From an uncultured Pelagibacteraceae bacterium (GTDB lineage: Bacteria; Pseudomonadota; Alphaproteobacteria; Pelagibacterales; Pelagibacteraceae): a stretch of 64,000 bases of DNA. The stretch's first letter is position 1, and each line of letters begins with the position of its first letter. Where the stretch lies: NCBI GenBank assembly GCA_902543245.1, contig CACBXQ010000001.1:1-64000 (forward strand). Direction: 5' to 3'. Under the pieces are notes generated by a model, which saw only the letters and a program-made list of their open reading frames with translations, was not told the DNA's origin and did not search any database. Positions 4,038 to 11,308 of this stretch are shown in pieces. The position numbers and the translations under genes were made by a program.

Positions 4038-4061
4038 AAATCATAATACTAGTTATGATTT
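4038..4061 (+). promoter_or_regulatory. Hairpin over the start codon of the persulfide dioxygenase gene
   Basis: A 9-bp inverted repeat (AAATCATAA / TTATGATTT, 6-base loop) lies in the 30-base gap after sqr, and its right arm contains the ATG at 4055. A T run follows. It could reduce expression of the second gene by folding over the start, or act as a weak terminator. It has only one G-C pair, so in such A+T-rich DNA it may be chance. Confidence 0.25.
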
Positions 4062-4750
4062 TTAAACAATTATTTGATACTAAATCCTCTACCTACACTT
4101 ATTTAATTGCAAGTGATAAAGGCAGAGAAGCTCTAATAATTGATCCTGTAATTGAACATACTGAAATATATACAAAAGAACTCAAAGACCTTGATTTAAA
4201 ATTAGTTAAAGTGATTGATACACATATACATGCAGACCACATAACTGGTTTAAATGAATTAAGTAAAATTTATAATTGTTCCAAAATTATGGGTGAACAA
4301 TCTAAGTCTGAGGTTATCGATGTCAGGGTAAAGAATGAAGATAAGATAAAAATTGAAAATATTGAATTAAATGTAATCTATACACCTGGTCATACAGATT
4401 GCTCATATAGTTTTTTAATGAATGATAGGGTTTTTACAGGTGATACATTATTAATAAATGGAACAGGTCGTACAGATTTTCAGAATGGGGATGCAAAAGA
4501 ACAATACAATTCAATATTCAATAAACTTCTTAAATTACCTGAAAATACTTACGTTTATCCAGCTCATGATTACAATGGTAAAAAATTTTCTACAATTGGG
4601 GAACAGCGTTCAAATAATCCAAGATTACAAGTTAGTTCTGTAGATCAATACGTAGAAATAATGAATAATTTAAACCTTGCAAATCCTAAAATGATGGATG
4701 TAGCAGTTCCTGCTAATCTTAAGGGCTTAACGCTTGATCAGCTTAATTAA
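4055..4750 (+). CDS. Persulfide dioxygenase, ETHE1-like metallo-beta-lactamase-fold protein
   Basis: The product has the MBL-fold metal motif THIHADH (His57, His59, Asp61, His62), then [11 protein letters not shown] (about 110) and FTGDTLL (about 126), and PAHDYNG near 169. The NPRL (near 192) and VAVPANL (near 218) segments at the C-terminus are typical of ETHE1-type persulfide dioxygenases, which use a mononuclear iron to oxidise glutathione persulfide to sulfite. At 231 residues it has the usual size. Adjacency to sqr matches the known SQR-PDO pairing, in which SQR makes the persulfide substrate. Glutathione would be supplied by gshA/gshB in this same window. Rhodanese or a general glyoxalase II are less likely given the C-terminal motif and the neighbour. 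Confidence 0.9.
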
Positions 4751-4785: not shown

Positions 4786-5373
4786 ATGAATGATTTCTTA
4801 GAATCCATAATGCATCGTGACCCTGCTGCAAAATCTAAAATAAGTATTATTTTAACTTATCCTGGTGTTAAGGCGGTCTTTTTTCACAGAATTGCAAATT
4901 TTTTTTCTGTTGCAAAATTAGATTTAATTGCCAGAATTATTTCTCAATTTTCAAGATTTATGACTGGAATTGAAATTCACCCAGGAGCAAAAATTGGAAA
5001 AAATTTATTTATTGATCATGGTATGGGTGTCGTTATTGGAGAAACATCTGATATTGGTGATAATGTAACTATTTATCATATGGCTACTTTAGGAGGTATT
5101 GCTCCAAGTATAAACTCAGATAATCAGAGAGATGTAAAAAGACATCCGACTTTAAAAGATAATGTTGTTGTTGGATCGGGTGCTCAAATTTTAGGACCAG
5201 TTGTAATTGGAAAAAATGCAAAAGTTGGAGCTAATGCAGTTGTGACTAAAGATGTTGAAGAAAATGCTGTCATGGTTGGTATACCTGCAAAAAATGTTGG
5301 TCAAACAACCAAAGATGAAAAATTTACTCCTTATGGTATAGATCCAAGTGAGAATACAAAAGAAGATAAATGA
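4786..5373 (+). CDS. cysE: Serine O-acetyltransferase (EpsC/CysE)
   Basis: Makes O-acetylserine from serine and acetyl-CoA. [20 protein letters not shown] (about 10-29) and the following FHRIANFF match the N-terminal helical part of the short EpsC-type enzymes. A left-handed beta-helix follows, built of hexapeptide repeats ([34 protein letters not shown]). The catalytic His/Asp elements FIDHG and the DPA/FHR region are present. The 195-residue size is that of the short form, lacking the long N-terminal domain of the enterobacterial enzyme. The FTPYGI tail (about 180) resembles the C-terminal end that docks into cysteine synthase. The stop overlaps the start of cysK by ATGA, so the two are translationally coupled. 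Confidence 0.94.
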
Positions 5374-6371
5374 AAATAATCCAAAATAGTTTTGTAGATG
5401 GCGTTGGAAATACTCCTCTCATAAAATTAAAAGGTCCTTCAGAATTAACAGGATGTAATATTTATGGAAAAGCAGAATATCTAAATCCTGGTGGGTCAGT
5501 TAAAGATAGAGCTGCACTGTATTTAATCAAAGATGCAGAAGAAAAAAAATTAATTTCAAAAGGTGGAACTATAGTTGAGGGAACCGCAGGAAATACCGGC
5601 ATTGGTCTTTGTTTAATTGGAAATTCTTTAGGATACAAAACCATTATTGTAATGAACGATAATCAGACGCAAGAGAAAAAAGATTTATTAAGAAATATAG
5701 GATCTGATTTAAGACTTGTTCCACCCAAACCATATAGTGATGATGGAAATTTTGTTAAAGTAGCTGGTAGACTAGCTGATGAATTGAGACCTCAAAATAA
5801 TAATGGTGTTGTATGGGCAAATCAATTTGACAATGTTGCAAATGCAAAGGCTCATTATGAAACTACTGGTAAAGAAATTTGGGAACAAACAGATGGAAAA
5901 GTTGATGGATTTATATGCTCATCTGGAACAGGTGGGACTATTTCAGGAGTTAGTAATGCGCTTAAGGAGAAAAATAAAGATATTAAAATTTATCTTGCAG
6001 ATCCAAAAGGATCGTCCATGTATAATTATGTTAAAAGTGGAGAATTGAAATCTGAAGGTAGTTCTATAACTGAAGGTATAGGCTCAAGTAGAGTTACAAA
6101 AAATTTTGAAAAAGCCAGAGTAGATGACGCTTTTTCTGTTGATGATAAAGAAGCTTTACCGGTATTGTATAATTTAATTAAACACGAAGGACTTAGTCTT
6201 GGAACTAGTTGTGCAATTAATGTGTGTGGTGCTATTAAAATGGCAAAAGAATTAGGTCCAGGAAAAACAATAGTCACAATCCTGTGTGATAAATCAGAAA
6301 AATACAACTCTAAGCTGTTTAATAAATCGTTTTTGCAAGAAAAAGGCTTACCTTATCCTGATTGGATATAG
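5370..6371 (+). CDS. cysK: Cysteine synthase A (O-acetylserine sulfhydrylase)
   Basis: PLP enzyme joining O-acetylserine with sulfide to give cysteine. [12 protein letters not shown] (39-50) contains the PLP lysine at about residue 45, [11 protein letters not shown] (about 70) is the substrate loop, and [10 protein letters not shown] (about 185) is the phosphate-binding loop of PLP. The 333-residue length is slightly longer than usual, with the extension at the C-terminus ([15 protein letters not shown]), a form seen in many alphaproteobacteria and eukaryotes. It overlaps cysE by 4 bases. Placement after sqr and the persulfide dioxygenase suggests that sulfide can go either to oxidation or to cysteine, which matters in a lineage thought to lack assimilatory sulfate reduction. 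Confidence 0.95.
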
Positions 6372-6452
6372 CGACACATATCAGATTTGTCATAAAATCA
6401 TAATATTTATAAATTAATTTGAAATAAAGTTAATTTTATTAAAGGAGGAAGC

Positions 6453-6836
6453 ATGGACATAAAAGAACAAATGAAAAAAGCATATGAACTTTTTAACACA
6501 GGTGATATGGAAACATTTTTTAATGATATGATTGATGACAATATAGTTTGGACATTTCCAGGTAAGGAAGGTGTTCATCCTTTATCAGGAGTTCATAAAG
6601 GAAAACAAGCGATGATGGCAACAATGTCTAAAATTCCAGGAACATGGCCAAATTTTAATTTAAAAATTATGGATATGATCAGTGAAGGAAATAAGATTTT
6701 TGTAAGAGTTCATGCCAAAGCTGATAACATGGATACTATGTTTGGACATTATTTTGAAATGAATGATCAAGGAAAAACTGTAACCATGATGACATTTGAT
6801 GACACACTTAGCATGTTCAATGCAATGAAAAAATAA
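6453..6836 (+). CDS. SnoaL-like (NTF2-fold) protein
   Basis: A small alpha+beta protein of 127 residues whose start, IKEQMKKAYELFNTGDMETF, followed by IDDNIVWTFPG, is the classic opening of SnoaL/NTF2-like proteins. These form a cone-shaped pocket used for isomerase, hydrolase or ligand-binding roles. The function of this member is unknown. The start has a strong ribosome binding site, AAAGGAGGAAG, just upstream of the ATG. It is the first gene of a 3.5-kb run of nine small same-strand genes, and a second SnoaL-like protein sits eighth in the run (9045-9365). Confidence 0.75.
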   Translation: MDIKEQMKKAYELFNTGDMETFFNDMIDDNIVWTFPGKEGVHPLSGVHKGKQAMMATMSKIPGTWPNFNLKIMDMISEGNKIFVRVHAKADNMDTMFGHYFEMNDQGKTVTMMTFDDTLSMFNAMKK

Positions 6837-6898
6837 ATGTGCTGATAAAGTCTTGTGTTATTAAAATTAAGTTTAAACAAGTATAATAAGGAAAACAA

Positions 6899-7378
6899 AT
6901 GAGAAAAATAATATTTACGATATTTATATCAATATTTACAACCTCTGCATTTGCTGAAACTTCTGGTAAGTTTCAAGCTAGTGGAATGGGTGCTTGGGAA
7001 GTAAATGCCATGGACGGTGGAAATGGCAATATGAGCATAACATACGACGGAATTGCTGGAATGGCAGACGTAAATCCAGACAGTATATTTCACAAATCAA
7101 CAATGCACTGCATCGGTGGATTAACATTGCAGGCTGGAAAGTTTGAGGATGAAACTGGAATGTGCAGATTTGATTTATTTGATGGTGAAAGTGTTTTTAT
7201 CAATTACAAAGGAAAAGGTACTGGTGGAGTTGGTGGAAGTGGAGACTTTATTATCATCGGTGGAACTGGTAAATATGCAAATATTAAAGGAACTGGTTTT
7301 TCAAGTAGACAAAATCTAAAAAGTAAAACTGGTTTTGCAACATCAATGAACCAAATGAGCGGTGAGTTCACTTATTAA
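6899..7378 (+). CDS. Secreted Gly-rich beta protein of unknown function
   Basis: The 159-residue product opens with a clear Sec signal peptide (MRKIIFTIFISIFTTSAFAE, cleavage probably after AFA at about 19). The mature part is rich in Gly, aromatic and beta-branched residues, with patterns such as FIIIGGTGKYANIKGTGFSS near residue 120 that suggest a beta barrel or beta sandwich. A pair of cysteines (in HCIGG and GMCRF) may form a disulfide in the periplasm. The GGTGKY(x)nGxG pattern recalls allene-oxide-cyclase-like barrels, but I would not assign that. The ATG is preceded by AATAAGGAAAACAA. Its neighbours are equally uncharacterised. Confidence 0.65.
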   Translation: MRKIIFTIFISIFTTSAFAETSGKFQASGMGAWEVNAMDGGNGNMSITYDGIAGMADVNPDSIFHKSTMHCIGGLTLQAGKFEDETGMCRFDLFDGESVFINYKGKGTGGVGGSGDFIIIGGTGKYANIKGTGFSSRQNLKSKTGFATSMNQMSGEFTY

Positions 7379-7397
7379 TTAATTTTATTATTAAAAT

Positions 7398-7772
7398 ATG
7401 AAAAAAATAATAACTTCAATATTTTTGTGTCTATTTACTACTATTTCATCTGCTGAAATTAGTAATGCAGACAAAGCAAAAGCGTGGGATTGTAGCGGAA
7501 TATATATGGCTAACTATTTTTTACCTTCTGGAGAAACATTTGAATACAGCATGAAAGAAAAATCAGTGGCATCAGTGAAAGTACTTAAAGCTTATGCGTT
7601 AGAAGCTGGAATTCCTGCAAAAGATTGGGATGATGGAGTGAACAACGCAGTAGATAAATATTATGGTTCAAAATATGATGAAGTTAAAACAAATGAATGT
7701 CATGAATTTTTAGAGGCATTTGTGCCTGATGGTAAAGAAAGAGTAAAAAAAGTTGTTCAGACATTATATTAA
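7398..7772 (+). CDS. Small secreted protein of unknown function
   Basis: Signal peptide MKKIITSIFLCLFTTISSAE (cleavage near residue 19), then about 105 mature residues, mostly helical, with two cysteines (WDCSGIY near 31 and NECHEFL near 106) that could pair in the periplasm. Its leader resembles that of the preceding secreted protein (both KKII-TSIF-like, ending in S-A-E/F-A-E). I do not recognise a family. It sits 19 bases after the preceding gene and 18 bases before the next, consistent with one transcript. Confidence 0.65.
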   Translation: MKKIITSIFLCLFTTISSAEISNADKAKAWDCSGIYMANYFLPSGETFEYSMKEKSVASVKVLKAYALEAGIPAKDWDDGVNNAVDKYYGSKYDEVKTNECHEFLEAFVPDGKERVKKVVQTLY

Positions 7773-7790
7773 AAAAAAAGGAGAATAATA

Positions 7791-8084
7791 ATGAAAGATT
7801 ATTTAACGACACATACTTTTAAATCTGCTGAGATGAAAAAGAAAATGCAAGAAACTATGGGATCAATGTCTCCAGCAGATATAATTAAATCAACAACTGG
7901 TCCAAAAGCAGTTTGTCAATCATCATTTGTTTCGCCGGGTGATAGTTTGGTAATGTACTGTCACTGGAAAGCAGAGAGTGAAGATGCAATTAACGAACAA
8001 TTAGGACCCATGAATGATTTTTATGAGCCACATAAACATCAAGAGATAGATCAAATCATGGATTTTAATAAAATGAGATCATAA
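7791..8084 (+). CDS. Small alpha/beta protein, possibly DUF4242-like
   Basis: Cytoplasmic 97-residue protein with no signal peptide. The middle, AVCQSSFVSPGDSLVMYCHW followed by KAESEDAINEQL, has the strand-turn-strand-helix order of small ferredoxin-like (dimeric alpha/beta barrel) proteins; the SLVMYCHWKAESEDAI part recalls DUF4242-type domains. It ends in a His/Glu-rich HKHQEID. The ribosome binding site AAAGGAGAATAAT precedes the ATG. Family assignment is tentative and function unknown. It is the first of four consecutive genes with this general size and fold pattern. Confidence 0.6.
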   Translation: MKDYLTTHTFKSAEMKKKMQETMGSMSPADIIKSTTGPKAVCQSSFVSPGDSLVMYCHWKAESEDAINEQLGPMNDFYEPHKHQEIDQIMDFNKMRS

Positions 8085-8108
8085 ATAAATAATAGAAAGG
8101 GTAAAGAA

Positions 8109-8399
8109 ATGGAAAAAGAAATGTTAGCTATATTAAGCTTGAATGAAGGAAAGTTTGAAACGTTCATGGGATGGATGCAATCTGATGAGGGAATGAGTGT
8201 AAGAAAAAGTGTTGCTTATCCAGAAAAAACTATTGGGGGAGTTGCGCCTGATAAAAGTAAGGTAATGTTTAAAGTTTCAGTTCACAATGAAGCAGGTATG
8301 AAAGAATTTGTTGCTGGCAAAAATCCTATTGCAAAAGGAATCTATGAGGAATGTGTTGCTAGTGTAAATCTTTATGAATTATCAAAAGTAGACTTTTAG
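8109..8399 (+). CDS. Small uncharacterised alpha/beta protein
   Basis: This 96-residue protein has alternating strand and helix patterns: EMLAILSLNEGKFETFMGWM at the start, KSKVMFKVSVHNEAGMKEFV in the middle and a C-terminal strand ASVNLYEL. That arrangement is compatible with a ferredoxin-like alpha/beta-barrel fold. No active-site motif is recognisable and no Cys pair is present (one Cys near residue 83). A ribosome binding site (GAAAGGGTAAAGAA) precedes the ATG. Function unknown; the context suggests it works with the similar-sized neighbours. Confidence 0.6.
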   Translation: MEKEMLAILSLNEGKFETFMGWMQSDEGMSVRKSVAYPEKTIGGVAPDKSKVMFKVSVHNEAGMKEFVAGKNPIAKGIYEECVASVNLYELSKVDF

Positions 8400-8423
8400 T
8401 TTCATAAAATTAAGGAGGCATAG

Positions 8424-8747
8424 ATGGCAAAATTTTATTTGATAGGTAAAATTAGTTCTGAACTAATGAAAAGAATGCAAAATGAACCAGCAGCAGATAG
8501 ATATGCATCTACAAAAAAAGTAGCTGAAGCAGCAGGATTAAAATTGATTAGTTACGAATGGGTACGTGGAAGGTTTGATACAATTTCATGTGTTGAAGGT
8601 GAATTTGAACAAGCGGTTGCATTAAAAATTGCTTTTAAAAATTCAGGGTTGATGGATGAGCTTATGATACATGAGGTGATTGATTACAACAAGGCATTCA
8701 CCAACGCTGCAAACGCAACAAATACTGTTGTTAAACCAGGAAAATGA
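8424..8747 (+). CDS. GYD-domain-like protein
   Basis: In this 107-residue protein KFYLIGKISSELMKRM at the N-terminus, then KKVAEAAGLKLISYEWVRGR (about 32-51) and FDTISCVEGEFEQAVALKIA, reproduce the layout of GYD-domain proteins: 'aeklGgklk.fywtlGryD.v.i.eapde.aa'. The family has a small ferredoxin-like fold and no established function. AATTAAGGAGGCATAG gives a strong ribosome binding site. Its TGA overlaps the first of two tandem ATG codons of the next gene, so the two are translationally coupled. Confidence in the gene is high, in the family moderate. Confidence 0.7.
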   Translation: MAKFYLIGKISSELMKRMQNEPAADRYASTKKVAEAAGLKLISYEWVRGRFDTISCVEGEFEQAVALKIAFKNSGLMDELMIHEVIDYNKAFTNAANATNTVVKPGK

Positions 8748-9034
8748 TGACTGGCTTTGCAATTTTTAATATTGAAGTCACCAATTCAGAACCGTACAAA
8801 GAGTACATAGATAAAGTAAAACCGATTGCTGAAAAATTTGGAGGTGAATATTTAGTAAGAGGAGGTACTAATCAAGTTGTCGAAGGATCCTGGCAACATA
8901 GTAGAACTGTTGTGATTAAATTTCCAACTTACGATAAAGCTTTAGAGTGGTATAATTCTGAAGAATATAAACCAGTAAAAAAAATTCGATTGGATAATTC
9001 AACGTCTAATGGGATAATAATACAAGGAACATAA
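8744..9034 (+). CDS. DUF1330 family protein
   Basis: This 96-residue protein matches DUF1330 throughout: YKEYIDKVKPIAEKFGGEYL (18-37) followed by VRGG, then VEGSWQHSRTVVIKFPTYDK, and ALEWYNSEEYKPVKKIR near 66-82. DUF1330 proteins adopt a dimeric alpha/beta-barrel (ferredoxin-like) fold; their role is unknown. The first ATG overlaps the stop of the GYD-like gene (ATGATG), and the second ATG three bases on is an equally good start. The link to the GYD-like gene suggests equimolar production and perhaps a heteromeric assembly. Confidence 0.88.
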   Translation: MMTGFAIFNIEVTNSEPYKEYIDKVKPIAEKFGGEYLVRGGTNQVVEGSWQHSRTVVIKFPTYDKALEWYNSEEYKPVKKIRLDNSTSNGIIIQGT

Positions 9035-9044
9035 AGGAGATAAT

Positions 9045-9365
9045 ATGTCTATAATTGAAAAATATAGTGCAGCTATGAAAAATAGAGATGAGGCAGCAAT
9101 GAATGAAATATTGCATGATGATTTTAAATTCACAATGCACAAATCAGGTAATACTTTAGGTAAAGCAGAAATCATCAAATGGGCAATGAGTGGTGACATT
9201 AAACAGAGAGATTCAAGAATAATTTATGAAAACGACGAAGTTGGTATACACCATGCATTTGTAACATTCGATGATGGGAATGTTGAAGCTGTAATGGCTG
9301 TTTATAAATATCAAGATGGAAAAATTGCTAGTTTGGAAACTGGCGCTACACCAATGCCTAAATAA
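9045..9365 (+). CDS. Second SnoaL-like (NTF2-fold) protein
   Basis: 106 residues. IIEKYSAAMKNRDEAAMNEI followed by LHDDFKFTMHKSG is the characteristic helix-helix-strand start of SnoaL/NTF2-like proteins, and the later strands (GIHHAFVTFDDGNVEAVMAV, then YKYQDGKIAS) complete the cone. Function unknown. AAAGGAGATAAT gives a strong ribosome binding site, with only 10 bases after the DUF1330 gene. Its TAA stop shares a base with the ATG of the following TPR gene (TAATG). Confidence 0.75.
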   Translation: MSIIEKYSAAMKNRDEAAMNEILHDDFKFTMHKSGNTLGKAEIIKWAMSGDIKQRDSRIIYENDEVGIHHAFVTFDDGNVEAVMAVYKYQDGKIASLETGATPMPK

Positions 9366-9922
9366 TGATTAAAAAAGTAATTATTATATTTTTTTCTATG
9401 ATCTTTTTTAGCAGTCTAGTAGCTGCTGAGAAAGATCAAGAAGTTAGGCTTAAGGGTTTATTTAAAGATTTACAAAATACTTTTGATTTAAACGAAGCAA
9501 GAAAAATTGAAGATGAAATATGGAATGTTTGGACAACCCATCCCTCTGAAGAAACTTTAACAAGTCTTTTAAAAAAAGGTACTAATTATATGTCACAAAA
9601 CCAGCTGACAAGTGCACACAATGTATTTTCTAAAGCAATTGAGCTGGATCCTAATTGGGCTGAGGCATGGAATAAAAGAGCAACTGTATTATATCTAATG
9701 GGAAATTTTGAATTATCACAAAATGATATAGATATGGTTTTAAGTTTAGAGAAAAGACACTTTGGAGCATTGGCTGGCCAAGGAATGGTTCAAACAGCTA
9801 TGAAAAATTATCAAAAAGCAATTGATAGTTATATTGAGGCCCACAGAGTATATCCTGCAATGCGAACACCTTTAATAATGATTGAGAAATTAAAAGTACT
9901 GATACAAAAAGAAAGTATTTAA
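9365..9922 (+). CDS. Secreted TPR-repeat protein
   Basis: An N-terminal signal peptide (VIIIFFSMIFFSSLVAAE, cleavage near 22) precedes a 160-residue helical protein with about three tetratricopeptide repeats. The clearest is AHNVFSKAIELDPNWAEAWN near 81-100, followed by KRATVLYLMGNFELSQNDID and then GMVQTAMKNYQKAIDSYIEA near 138-157. TPR proteins of this kind hold other proteins in the periplasm. The start is coupled to the preceding SnoaL-like gene by TAATG, so this secreted protein belongs to the same transcript as the cytoplasmic small proteins. The specific role is unknown. Confidence 0.82.
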   Translation: MIKKVIIIFFSMIFFSSLVAAEKDQEVRLKGLFKDLQNTFDLNEARKIEDEIWNVWTTHPSEETLTSLLKKGTNYMSQNQLTSAHNVFSKAIELDPNWAEAWNKRATVLYLMGNFELSQNDIDMVLSLEKRHFGALAGQGMVQTAMKNYQKAIDSYIEAHRVYPAMRTPLIMIEKLKVLIQKESI

Positions 9923-9990
9923 CAACATTCTCCCTGATAAATCACAAATAGTGATTAATGAATTTTTCCCAAGAAATGGTAATATGAATC

Positions 9991-10326
9991 ATGGGGAATA
10001 TAACGGCATATATAATTTTGATAGTTGCGGTCGTTTTAGGAACTGCGTCAAATGGTTTTGCGAAAGGTTCTCAGGGATTCACTTTATTGTTACCAAGTTT
10101 TTTAACTGCAGTTTCAATAGTAGGATGTATGTATACTCTTTCATTAGTGATGAAATCAATACCAGTTGGAGTAACTTATGCATCGTTTGCAGGTTTATGC
10201 ATAATAGCCACAACAATTGTTGGAGTTTATAAATTTAATCAACTTCCTGATATTTTTACTATAATTGGCATGGGTCTAATTATCGCTGGAGTGTTGATGG
10301 TTAATTTGTTAGGGAACACCTCATAA
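9991..10326 (+). CDS. SMR-family-like transporter lacking the TM1 glutamate
   Basis: A four-helix membrane protein of 111 residues. It aligns well with small multidrug resistance proteins: GFTLLLPSFLTA at the end of TM1, then SIPVGVTYASFAGLCIIATT, and FTIIGMGLIIAGVLMVNLLG as TM4. In EmrE the essential proton- and substrate-binding residue is Glu14 in TM1. Here the first helix (AYIILIVAVVLGTAS) contains no acidic residue, and the whole protein has no Glu at all. It could be a non-drug exporter, a lipid-carrier flippase-like protein, or half of a heterodimer. The small membrane protein that starts 4 bases downstream may be a partner. Confidence 0.82.
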   Translation: MGNITAYIILIVAVVLGTASNGFAKGSQGFTLLLPSFLTAVSIVGCMYTLSLVMKSIPVGVTYASFAGLCIIATTIVGVYKFNQLPDIFTIIGMGLIIAGVLMVNLLGNTS

Positions 10327-10915: not shown

Positions 10916-11308
10916 TTACTTAAGGAACTTATCTACTTCAACTTGATATGCTTCAACCAATTTATTATTTTGGTTTGCTATCCCAACTACATCTATCATT
11001 TCTTTTAACATTTGATCAGTTGCTCCTTTTTTTTTAGCTGCAGCAGTATGAGATCTCGTACAGTACTCGCAACTATTTGTAATTGAAACAGCAACATAAA
11101 TTAATTCTTTTGTGACTGGGTCAAGAGCACCTTTTTTCATAATTTGCTTAAGATTATTCCAAGTCCTTTCAATTAAATCAGGATTATGTGCTAGCGATCT
11201 CCAAAAATTAGGAATTTTTTTTATTTTTCTTGTTTTTTTAATTTCATCAAAAACTTTTTTTACTTTTCCTTTAGCTTGTTTTTCACTTATTGGTTTAAAT
11301 ATTGTCAT
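10916..11308 (-). CDS. Carboxymuconolactone decarboxylase / AhpD-like protein
   Basis: 130 residues. The motif SCEYCTRSHTAAAKKKG (about 81-97) holds the CxxC pair and the nearby His of the AhpD/CMD fold, a thiol-disulfide or peroxidase-type site. DPVTKELIYVAVSITNSC just before it is the typical helix of the family. The single-domain length is normal. AAAGGAGATAAA precedes the ATG at 11308. The CxxC argues for an alkylhydroperoxidase-like redox role rather than true carboxymuconolactone decarboxylation. Confidence 0.9.
   Translation of the reverse strand: MTIFKPISEKQAKGKVKKVFDEIKKTRKIKKIPNFWRSLAHNPDLIERTWNNLKQIMKKGALDPVTKELIYVAVSITNSCEYCTRSHTAAAKKKGATDQMLKEMIDVVGIANQNNKLVEAYQVEVDKFLK

Follow-up and report, generated by a model that had tools for sequence, protein, structure and literature searches.

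SAR11 bacteria are among the most abundant marine bacteria, and their genomes are small and streamlined. In this work, a row of nine small genes was analysed in the genome of an uncultured Pelagibacteraceae bacterium (about 1.0 Mb in 24 contigs, 80% complete). The row occupies positions 6453–9922 of the window, which is the whole 64,000-nucleotide stretch of contig CACBXQ010000001.1 that was studied, and it adjoins the cysteine-synthesis gene cysK. It is one assembly of a variable array of small genes that recurs at this site in relatives.

Several described systems resemble this array. The replacement flexible genomic islands of Lopez-Perez et al. 2014 (PMC4033161), as presented in the accessible part of that paper, hold different genes at the same location in different strains, and homologous recombination at the flanks was proposed for them. 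The array fits this picture by its constant site, different genes and conserved flanks. In those islands, however, whole clusters, typically for surface structures, are swapped as a block, whereas here the array changes by gain, loss and reordering of individual small genes. The hypervariable regions HVR1–4 of SAR11 (Wilhelm et al. 2007, PMC2217521) share the variable gene content; in the portion of that paper used here no attC sites are reported, and the gene tables list genes other than the array families. Integron cassette arrays share short one-strand genes, changing gene order and one promoter-like element, but differ in their spacers, as given below. A SAR11 survey states for one population that most islands could not be interpreted owing to hypothetical proteins (PMC7318151). 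No description of the array was found in the literature on SAR11 or Pelagibacter islands, hypervariable regions, operons, DUF1330 or cysK. The array is a flexible island whose unit is a single small gene within one operon-like array.

A variable kit of small genes between cysK and an efflux-gene flank

The nine genes of the window are named A to I in their order. Fetched neighbourhoods were combined with the best 80 of at least 557 candidate loci containing E relatives, family profiles were built, and the profiles were mapped in 131 loci. The best 80 candidates all come from Pelagibacteraceae or Pelagibacterales. cysK is present in 86 of the 131 loci, and 76 of these arrays extend to a right flank with an SMR or DUF2798 gene (bounded arrays). 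The 76 bounded arrays form 46 distinct gene strings and 39 distinct gene sets and contain 1 to 11 core genes; the 14 arrays that did not come from the E-based scan account for 13 strings. Almost all detected array genes are on the array strand (563 of 570), the 7 exceptions all being copies of M, a membrane protein found in arrays other than that of the window. Many gene pairs are found in both orders; D and E, for instance, stand with D first in 16 distinct strings and with E first in 18. Among the 76 arrays, H is present in 72, E in 69, C and D in 66 each, G in 55, M in 45, c55, A and I in 35 each, B in 31, F in 21, cup68 and d3764b in 11 each, d3764a in 3 and cup72 in 2. The family count is a lower bound, because gaps longer than 150 bp contain further small open reading frames (ORFs) of 68 to 123 aa. 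These results show a kit of about 16 recurring small-protein families, plus rarer ones, strung on one strand between cysK and the SMR/DUF2798 flank.

Some of the unlisted genes recur themselves. A 123-aa cassette family lies between B and E in L122, L125–L130, L133, L134 and L145, a 93-aa family lies between E and G in L093 and L094, and a secreted-looking protein of 68 aa lies between E and D in many loci. The genome of the window, G000, holds a copy of M apart from the array (L199, G000:C5:51761-52171), and the window array itself has no M.

The site differs between genera. Genus g1 mostly has the array between cysK and J/DUF2798. A related gene set of genus g4 is found at a different site, beside dehydrogenase-like or enoyl-CoA-hydratase-like genes and a methyltransferase-like gene (presumed names, given by eye). 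Genome-wide searches with B, C, D, E, G, H and M (A, F and I were left out) at an E-value of 0.001 matched G in 82, M in 62, H in 47, C in 44, E in 29, D in 19 and B in 5 of 118 genomes of the family; many G matches are distant DUF1330 paralogues. Close copies of G (51–74% identity) are within arrays in some genomes and solitary in others, with lone copies in L038, L039, L041, L054–L058, L061 and L062. Of the 29 genomes with E, 24 carry at least one of B, C, D, G, H and M no more than 5 kb away from it (by eye), and in 6 of these 24 only M is near. The other five genomes have none of them at that distance from E; it is well inside the contig in several of the five and is therefore apart from the searched families there. 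One relative has cysE-cysK, one 69-aa ORF and two copies of J at the site and no array families, and L197 retains no more than a small secreted protein and an M in reverse orientation.

Larger genes were also seen at the site. In L101 (6314–7471) a 385-aa gene resembling flavin mononucleotide (FMN)-type hydroxy-acid dehydrogenases by eye lies between cysK and the array, so that an enzyme can enter the cysK-adjacent site; L104 has a gap of nearly equal size. In L059 (920–7270) the promoter-like element, followed by a D-G mini-array, is separated from cysK by about 6 kb that encode, by eye, membrane, glycosyltransferase-like and epimerase-like proteins.

The sequence-only reading of the window had proposed one operon of nine same-strand genes with short gaps, ribosome-binding sites and coupled junctions. 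All nine ORFs are present on the + strand, with products of 96–185 aa and gaps of 62, 19, 18, 24, 24, 10 and −1 bp. F and G overlap by 4 bp when G starts at 8744 and by 1 bp with its second ATG start, which was taken as the G start in the spacer statistics across arrays. ATGATG at 8744 and TAATG at 9363–9367 were confirmed in the sequence. The same close packing was found in 74 arrays (two loci without a full cysK were skipped), in which 447 same-strand spacers have a median of 13 bp: 44 overlap or abut, 327 are 1–30 bp, 41 are 31–60 bp, 5 are 61–150 bp and 30 are longer. A ribosome-binding core is present in 283 of the 335 spacers of at least 8 bp, compared with 15% of 4000 random 18-mers. 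The proposal of an operon-like cluster combining pocket-forming, ferredoxin-like and secreted proteins stands, but the nine genes are not a fixed set, as the string A-B-C-D-E-F-G-H-I occurs once among the 76 bounded arrays. Linkage in relatives, which that reading had raised as a check, is also partial: G and M have lone copies, and E keeps company with array families in most of its genomes. A fixed pathway that needs every step is unlikely, because array genes are freely present or absent.

Spacer length also separates the arrays from integrons. attC sites are longer than most of the spacers, 371 of 447 of which overlap or are at most 30 bp (judged by spacer length, with no attC model and no integrase search). 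Integron cassettes are thus unlikely, because most spacers leave no room for attC.

Selection was compared by the ratio of nonsynonymous to synonymous substitution rates (dN/dS), with pairs of dS 0.15–1.0 taken from up to 1500 random pairs per family. The median dN/dS is 0.04–0.16 in each of the 12 array families tested (I was left out), close to the medians of cysK (0.036) and cysE (0.069). The upper quartiles reach 0.72 for C and 0.32–0.36 for B (0.36), M and G. The 12 array families are under purifying selection.

A conserved promoter-like element heads most arrays

The distance from cysK (5370–6371, + strand in the window) to the first array gene is 66–97 bp in 63 of 74 arrays, whichever gene comes first. 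This gap mostly carries CRCATAYCWG followed by TGTMAYAAAAYnnTTACA. In 7 arrays the gene adjoining cysK is a reversed M, and the upstream sequence differs wherever M is reversed. A matrix of the element was built from 64 of the 86 cysK loci (40 unique sites in 16 clusters), the other 22 having no usable site under the starting expression. In the window the 40-bp element was matched once by the matrix, at 6373–6412 on the + strand (score 34.2, a training site), with no match in 6 shuffles, and once by the pattern, with 2 mismatches and no match in 100 shuffles. Over the 131 loci (2.0 Mb) the matrix gave 72 sites behind cysK, a count that includes the training sites. Its two other sites, in L070 and L059, each immediately precede an array that does not directly follow an intact cysK. 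No matrix match was found in shuffles of 60 loci.

The pattern was also searched with up to 3 mismatches in 41 genomes of the genus. It gave 24 matches in 23 genomes, and the reversed-pattern control gave 1. Arrays follow 23 of the 24 matches, and the sole exception is a three-mismatch match. Two of the 24 were already known (the window and G078); 21 of the 22 others head arrays, although 3 of these 22 places are probably the same records as loci of the E scan, and L048 and L132 are probably one record. The site of L178 was read from the pattern search and the −10 comparison. The pattern is present in 7 of the 8 genomes that are at least 90% complete and clean. These results indicate that a conserved promoter-like element heads most arrays regardless of the first gene.

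Two conserved boxes ahead of a −10 hexamer suggest that the array is transcribed from an activator-dependent promoter. In 12 of 31 representatives the best TATAAT-like hexamer is found at the same offset, and in 7 more it is shifted by two bases; the putative −10 position in the window is 6415–6420 on the + strand. The TGTMAYAAAA...TTACA box may resemble the OmpR/PhoB-type 11-bp repeats. Generic sigma-70 and terminator scans of the window gave results at chance level, and no Rfam match at the gathering score was found for structured RNA in the window.

Evidence for movement of array parts between lineages

The protein identity of the cassettes tracks that of cysK poorly, with a residual standard deviation (SD) of 0.10–0.26 compared with 0.03–0.08 for cysE, dsbA, the carboxymuconolactone-decarboxylase-family (CMD) gene, the IMP-like gene, so named by eye, and the ETHE-like gene (best copy per locus, length outliers dropped).

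Nucleotide sequences were compared in nine pairs chosen by the analyst. In the chosen pairs between g1 and g4 loci, shared core stretches are 71–73% identical, and the cassettes are more similar, with 84–86% for C, 80–85% for E-D, 82% for D and about 80% for G. The G-E-D-M block of L163, an array at the cysK site, is 84% identical to the g4 array L164, compared with 76% for the other shared stretch.

Genome G017 gives a further case. Its intact cysK, at 342 kb, has no array family as a neighbour. The array is 320 kb away, at 662 kb, where it follows the element and a cysK tail of 53 residues. This tail is 88.7% identical to the tail of L071 and 74.7% identical to G017's own cysK. Because it is closer to L071 than to its own cysK, the tail suggests an origin in another lineage. 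Taken together, the sequence comparisons support well that array parts move between lineages. The exchange would probably need no integron and proceed by homologous recombination in the flanks and in genes that the arrays have in common.

Protein families and predicted folds

A (6453–6836, + strand, as are all array genes) is a SnoaL-like protein above the Pfam cut-off (SnoaL_2, E 1.2e-10, 42.4 versus 27 bits) and is related to 1tuh and IdmH in a PDB search. H (9045–9365), a SnoaL-like/DUF4440 protein, is also above the cut-off (33.7 versus 27 bits); it usually closes the array or has I after it. G (8744–9034) is a DUF1330 protein (105.7 versus 23 bits, E 1.7e-30) related to 2fiu and 3lo3, and I (9365–9922) is a secreted TPR protein whose match is above the Pfam cut-off. 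F (8424–8747) is GYD-like and below the cut-off (23.8 versus 31.4 bits, E 4.7e-5), and a protein of the F cluster in L042 is above it (61.4 bits). D (7791–8084) has a weak SCO4226-like match below the cut-off (15.2 versus 28.5 bits, E 0.024). C (7398–7772) is a small secreted protein with two invariant cysteines and no known family; it gave sub-threshold Pfam matches only, and B and E gave no Pfam match at E ≤1. Signal-peptide-like N-termini are seen by eye on B, C and I. The sequence-only reading had named SnoaL-like, DUF1330, TPR and GYD-like proteins among repeated fold types. The first three names hold above the cut-offs, the GYD match of F lies below its own, and the repetition of fold types goes further than was proposed, as E also models as ferredoxin-like and B as a cyclase-type barrel.

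B (6899–7378) models as a secreted barrel of the allene-oxide-cyclase/dirigent type, to which spirocyclases also belong. Its model has eight strands in a closed barrel, with a predicted local distance difference test (pLDDT) score of 86.8. Foldseek and VIA-align matches include 2q03_A (Z 15.2, root-mean-square deviation (rmsd) 2.4, 125 residues aligned), PloI4 7x7z_B (Z 14.2, rmsd 3.6, 121 aligned), AbyU (Z 13.0, rmsd 2.6, 116 aligned) and pyocyanin demethylase (Z 13.0, rmsd 2.6, 118 aligned), and porin-type barrels reach Z ≤10.6. Allene oxide cyclase, dirigent and AbyU-type barrels and pyocyanin demethylase thus have the same fold as the B model, at an identity of about 8–16%.

E (8109–8399) models as a ferredoxin-like beta-alpha-beta-beta-alpha-beta unit nearest to dimeric alpha-beta barrels of the ABM/NIPSNAP-like kind. 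Its best model has a pLDDT of 86.6 (the other four have 62–74), with the element order E-H-H-E-E-H-H-E. Foldseek gave 9lmn_A (E 3.6e-4) and 3qmq_C (E 4.1e-4), and nearly all of the top rows are of the dimeric alpha-beta-barrel type. The structural matches include WhiE-ORFI (9lmn_B; Z 9.0, rmsd 3.3, 88 aligned), ABM, NIPSNAP and LsrG. Stand-alone ABM or dimeric alpha-beta-barrel proteins such as LsrG and ArqI are the nearest folds, with an identity of 3–18% in the listed structural matches. No E relative was found in the other 397 genomes of the phylum sample, at least one of which is Pelagibacteraceae, and E has so far been seen only in Pelagibacteraceae.

A PDB sequence search with profiles of B, E, D and C and with F gave no meaningful match; the E alignment comprised 15 of 16 distinct sequences, one of them N-terminally trimmed, and the C alignment 24 of 28 non-redundant ones. 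Weak PDB matches of c55 to FICD were taken as chance. Other arrays contain two DUF3764 families above the cut-off, cupins (c72 and an L082 protein above the cut-off, c68 below), an ABM-like family below the cut-off and a DsbA-fold protein.

Flanking genes in the window

On the left, the + strand carries a metallo-beta-lactamase-fold gene (4055–4750; Pfam Lactamase_B), presumably ETHE1-like, which is a left flank in many loci. It is followed by cysE (4786–5373), a constant flank in relatives, and by cysK; both genes are so named by eye. On the right is the + strand gene J (9991–10326), an SMR-family efflux protein (Pfam Multi_Drug_Res, E 2.5e-14). An opposite-strand CMD (AhpD-like) gene at 10916–11308 also flanks the array, as in many relatives. 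Between I and J, at 9939–9957, a short A/T-rich hairpin followed by a T-rich stretch is seen by eye. It could be the transcript end and is absent from the terminator-scan hits.

Possible function and alternative explanations

Known proteins with SnoaL, alpha-beta-barrel and cyclase-barrel-type folds include binders of hydrophobic small molecules and enzymes that convert such molecules without a cofactor. By analogy with these, we see an about even chance that the nine genes represent one form of a modular array of binders and cofactor-free enzymes for reactive or foreign small molecules. A single transcript from the element would co-express the whole array. Its products, binders or cofactor-free enzymes of small size, would capture reactive or foreign hydrophobic small molecules or else isomerise, cyclise or oxidise them, and candidate substrates may be quinones, oxylipins, aldehydes or allelochemicals. 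The SnoaL proteins, alpha-beta barrels and cupins would form the cytoplasmic part and B, C and I the periplasmic part, with an SMR pump encoded next to the array. The kit would stay variable through selection that differs with the local chemistry.

A number of observations weigh against this interpretation. The function rests on fold analogy, and such folds serve many roles. C, D, M and c55 are without an established fold, four of the five E models have the lower pLDDT values, and the margin of the E matches is small, as NikR (Z 7.9) and ribosomal S6 (Z 7.3–7.9) are also ferredoxin-like. Profile comparison of E with D and with c55 gave no signal of common ancestry, within small alignments. Because 62 of the 76 bounded arrays came from the E-based scan, the count of E and perhaps other counts are inflated. 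The pattern has no match in 18 of the 41 genus genomes, 33 of which are not both clean and at least 90% complete, and g4 arrays carry only a visibly related, below-threshold form of the element. Scatter against cysK is weak evidence when taken alone, because the flank genes J and DUF2798 scatter like the cassettes (0.15) and the cassettes evolve faster. At the nucleotide level, M is about 70% identical in the g1–g4 pairs and shows no excess similarity, and one core stretch of L163–L159 (81.5%) nearly equals the array block (83.6%).

A strong constitutive promoter behind cysK could make the site a landing place where unrelated small genes gather singly by chance and selection. Free gain, loss and reordering would be expected of such an island, and the L101 and L059 inserts, the genome without any family and the five of 29 genomes with E apart from the searched families fit it as well. 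We consider it unlikely, since several families recur jointly at the second chromosomal site of g4, E is paired with M in other genera, many families have pocket-forming folds and the genes keep one strand. It is quite unlikely that the array answers one kind of stress, such as reactive aldehydes, in the way known from Pseudomonas aeruginosa, where the gene of the ABM-domain protein ArqI lies next to gloA2. Foldseek does list the ArqI structure 8ecx for E at rank 38 (E 3.4e-3), but as one of 1307 hits at E ≤10. The work on ArqI shows that an electrophile response can include a stand-alone ABM protein, with arqI-gloA2 as the region most induced under glyoxal, but ArqI itself did not significantly restore glyoxal resistance (PMC12274486). 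Cysteine-synthesis, metallo-beta-lactamase-fold and CMD-family genes do flank the array, but no glyoxalase is among its Pfam-named families.

The fold matches to polyketide cyclases and spirocyclases would also suit a small-molecule biosynthetic module in which cyclase-type proteins perform tailoring steps. Such a module is very unlikely: Pfam shows no synthase or activating enzyme in the window array, with its products of 96–185 aa (no synthase search was made elsewhere in the genome), and free gene loss fits an ordered pathway poorly. A variable module of the envelope, or one related to phage, appears still more improbable. Variable islands in aquatic bacteria are often tied to exposed structures and phage sensitivity, according to the consulted part of PMC4033161, and B, C and I look secreted, while none of the array proteins searched belongs to a Pfam surface-structure family. 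Six of the nine window products, however, have no evident signal peptide by eye. Ten proteins gave no PHROGs match, and the defence-protein models of PADLOC at E 0.01 had no match for nine of ten, the TPR protein matching TPR models and weakly PDC-S28 (E 0.001). Relatives of E, C and D are absent from the viral contigs searched. A phage or plasmid origin was rejected on these searches together with those for E in phage records and for C in plasmid records, which also found nothing; rare carriers, or carriage of the other array families, are possible.

Significance

The array may belong to a wider arrangement, which we propose tentatively. It would be an integron-free, single-promoter cassette operon of SAR11, in which a pool of ligand binders and cofactor-free enzymes is reassembled and exchanged between genera to match local seawater chemistry, giving lineage-specific sets for detoxification or biotransformation. 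What is at hand is a reshuffled kit of uncharacterised proteins under purifying selection, at a fixed site and with its own promoter-like element, within streamlined SAR11 genomes, and it provides a natural example of an operon being put together with no integron machinery in evidence. If the interpretation is true, some of the commonest bacteria of the ocean would carry an accessory chemistry module, and strains with different arrays should differ in their tolerance of, or action on, defined small molecules.

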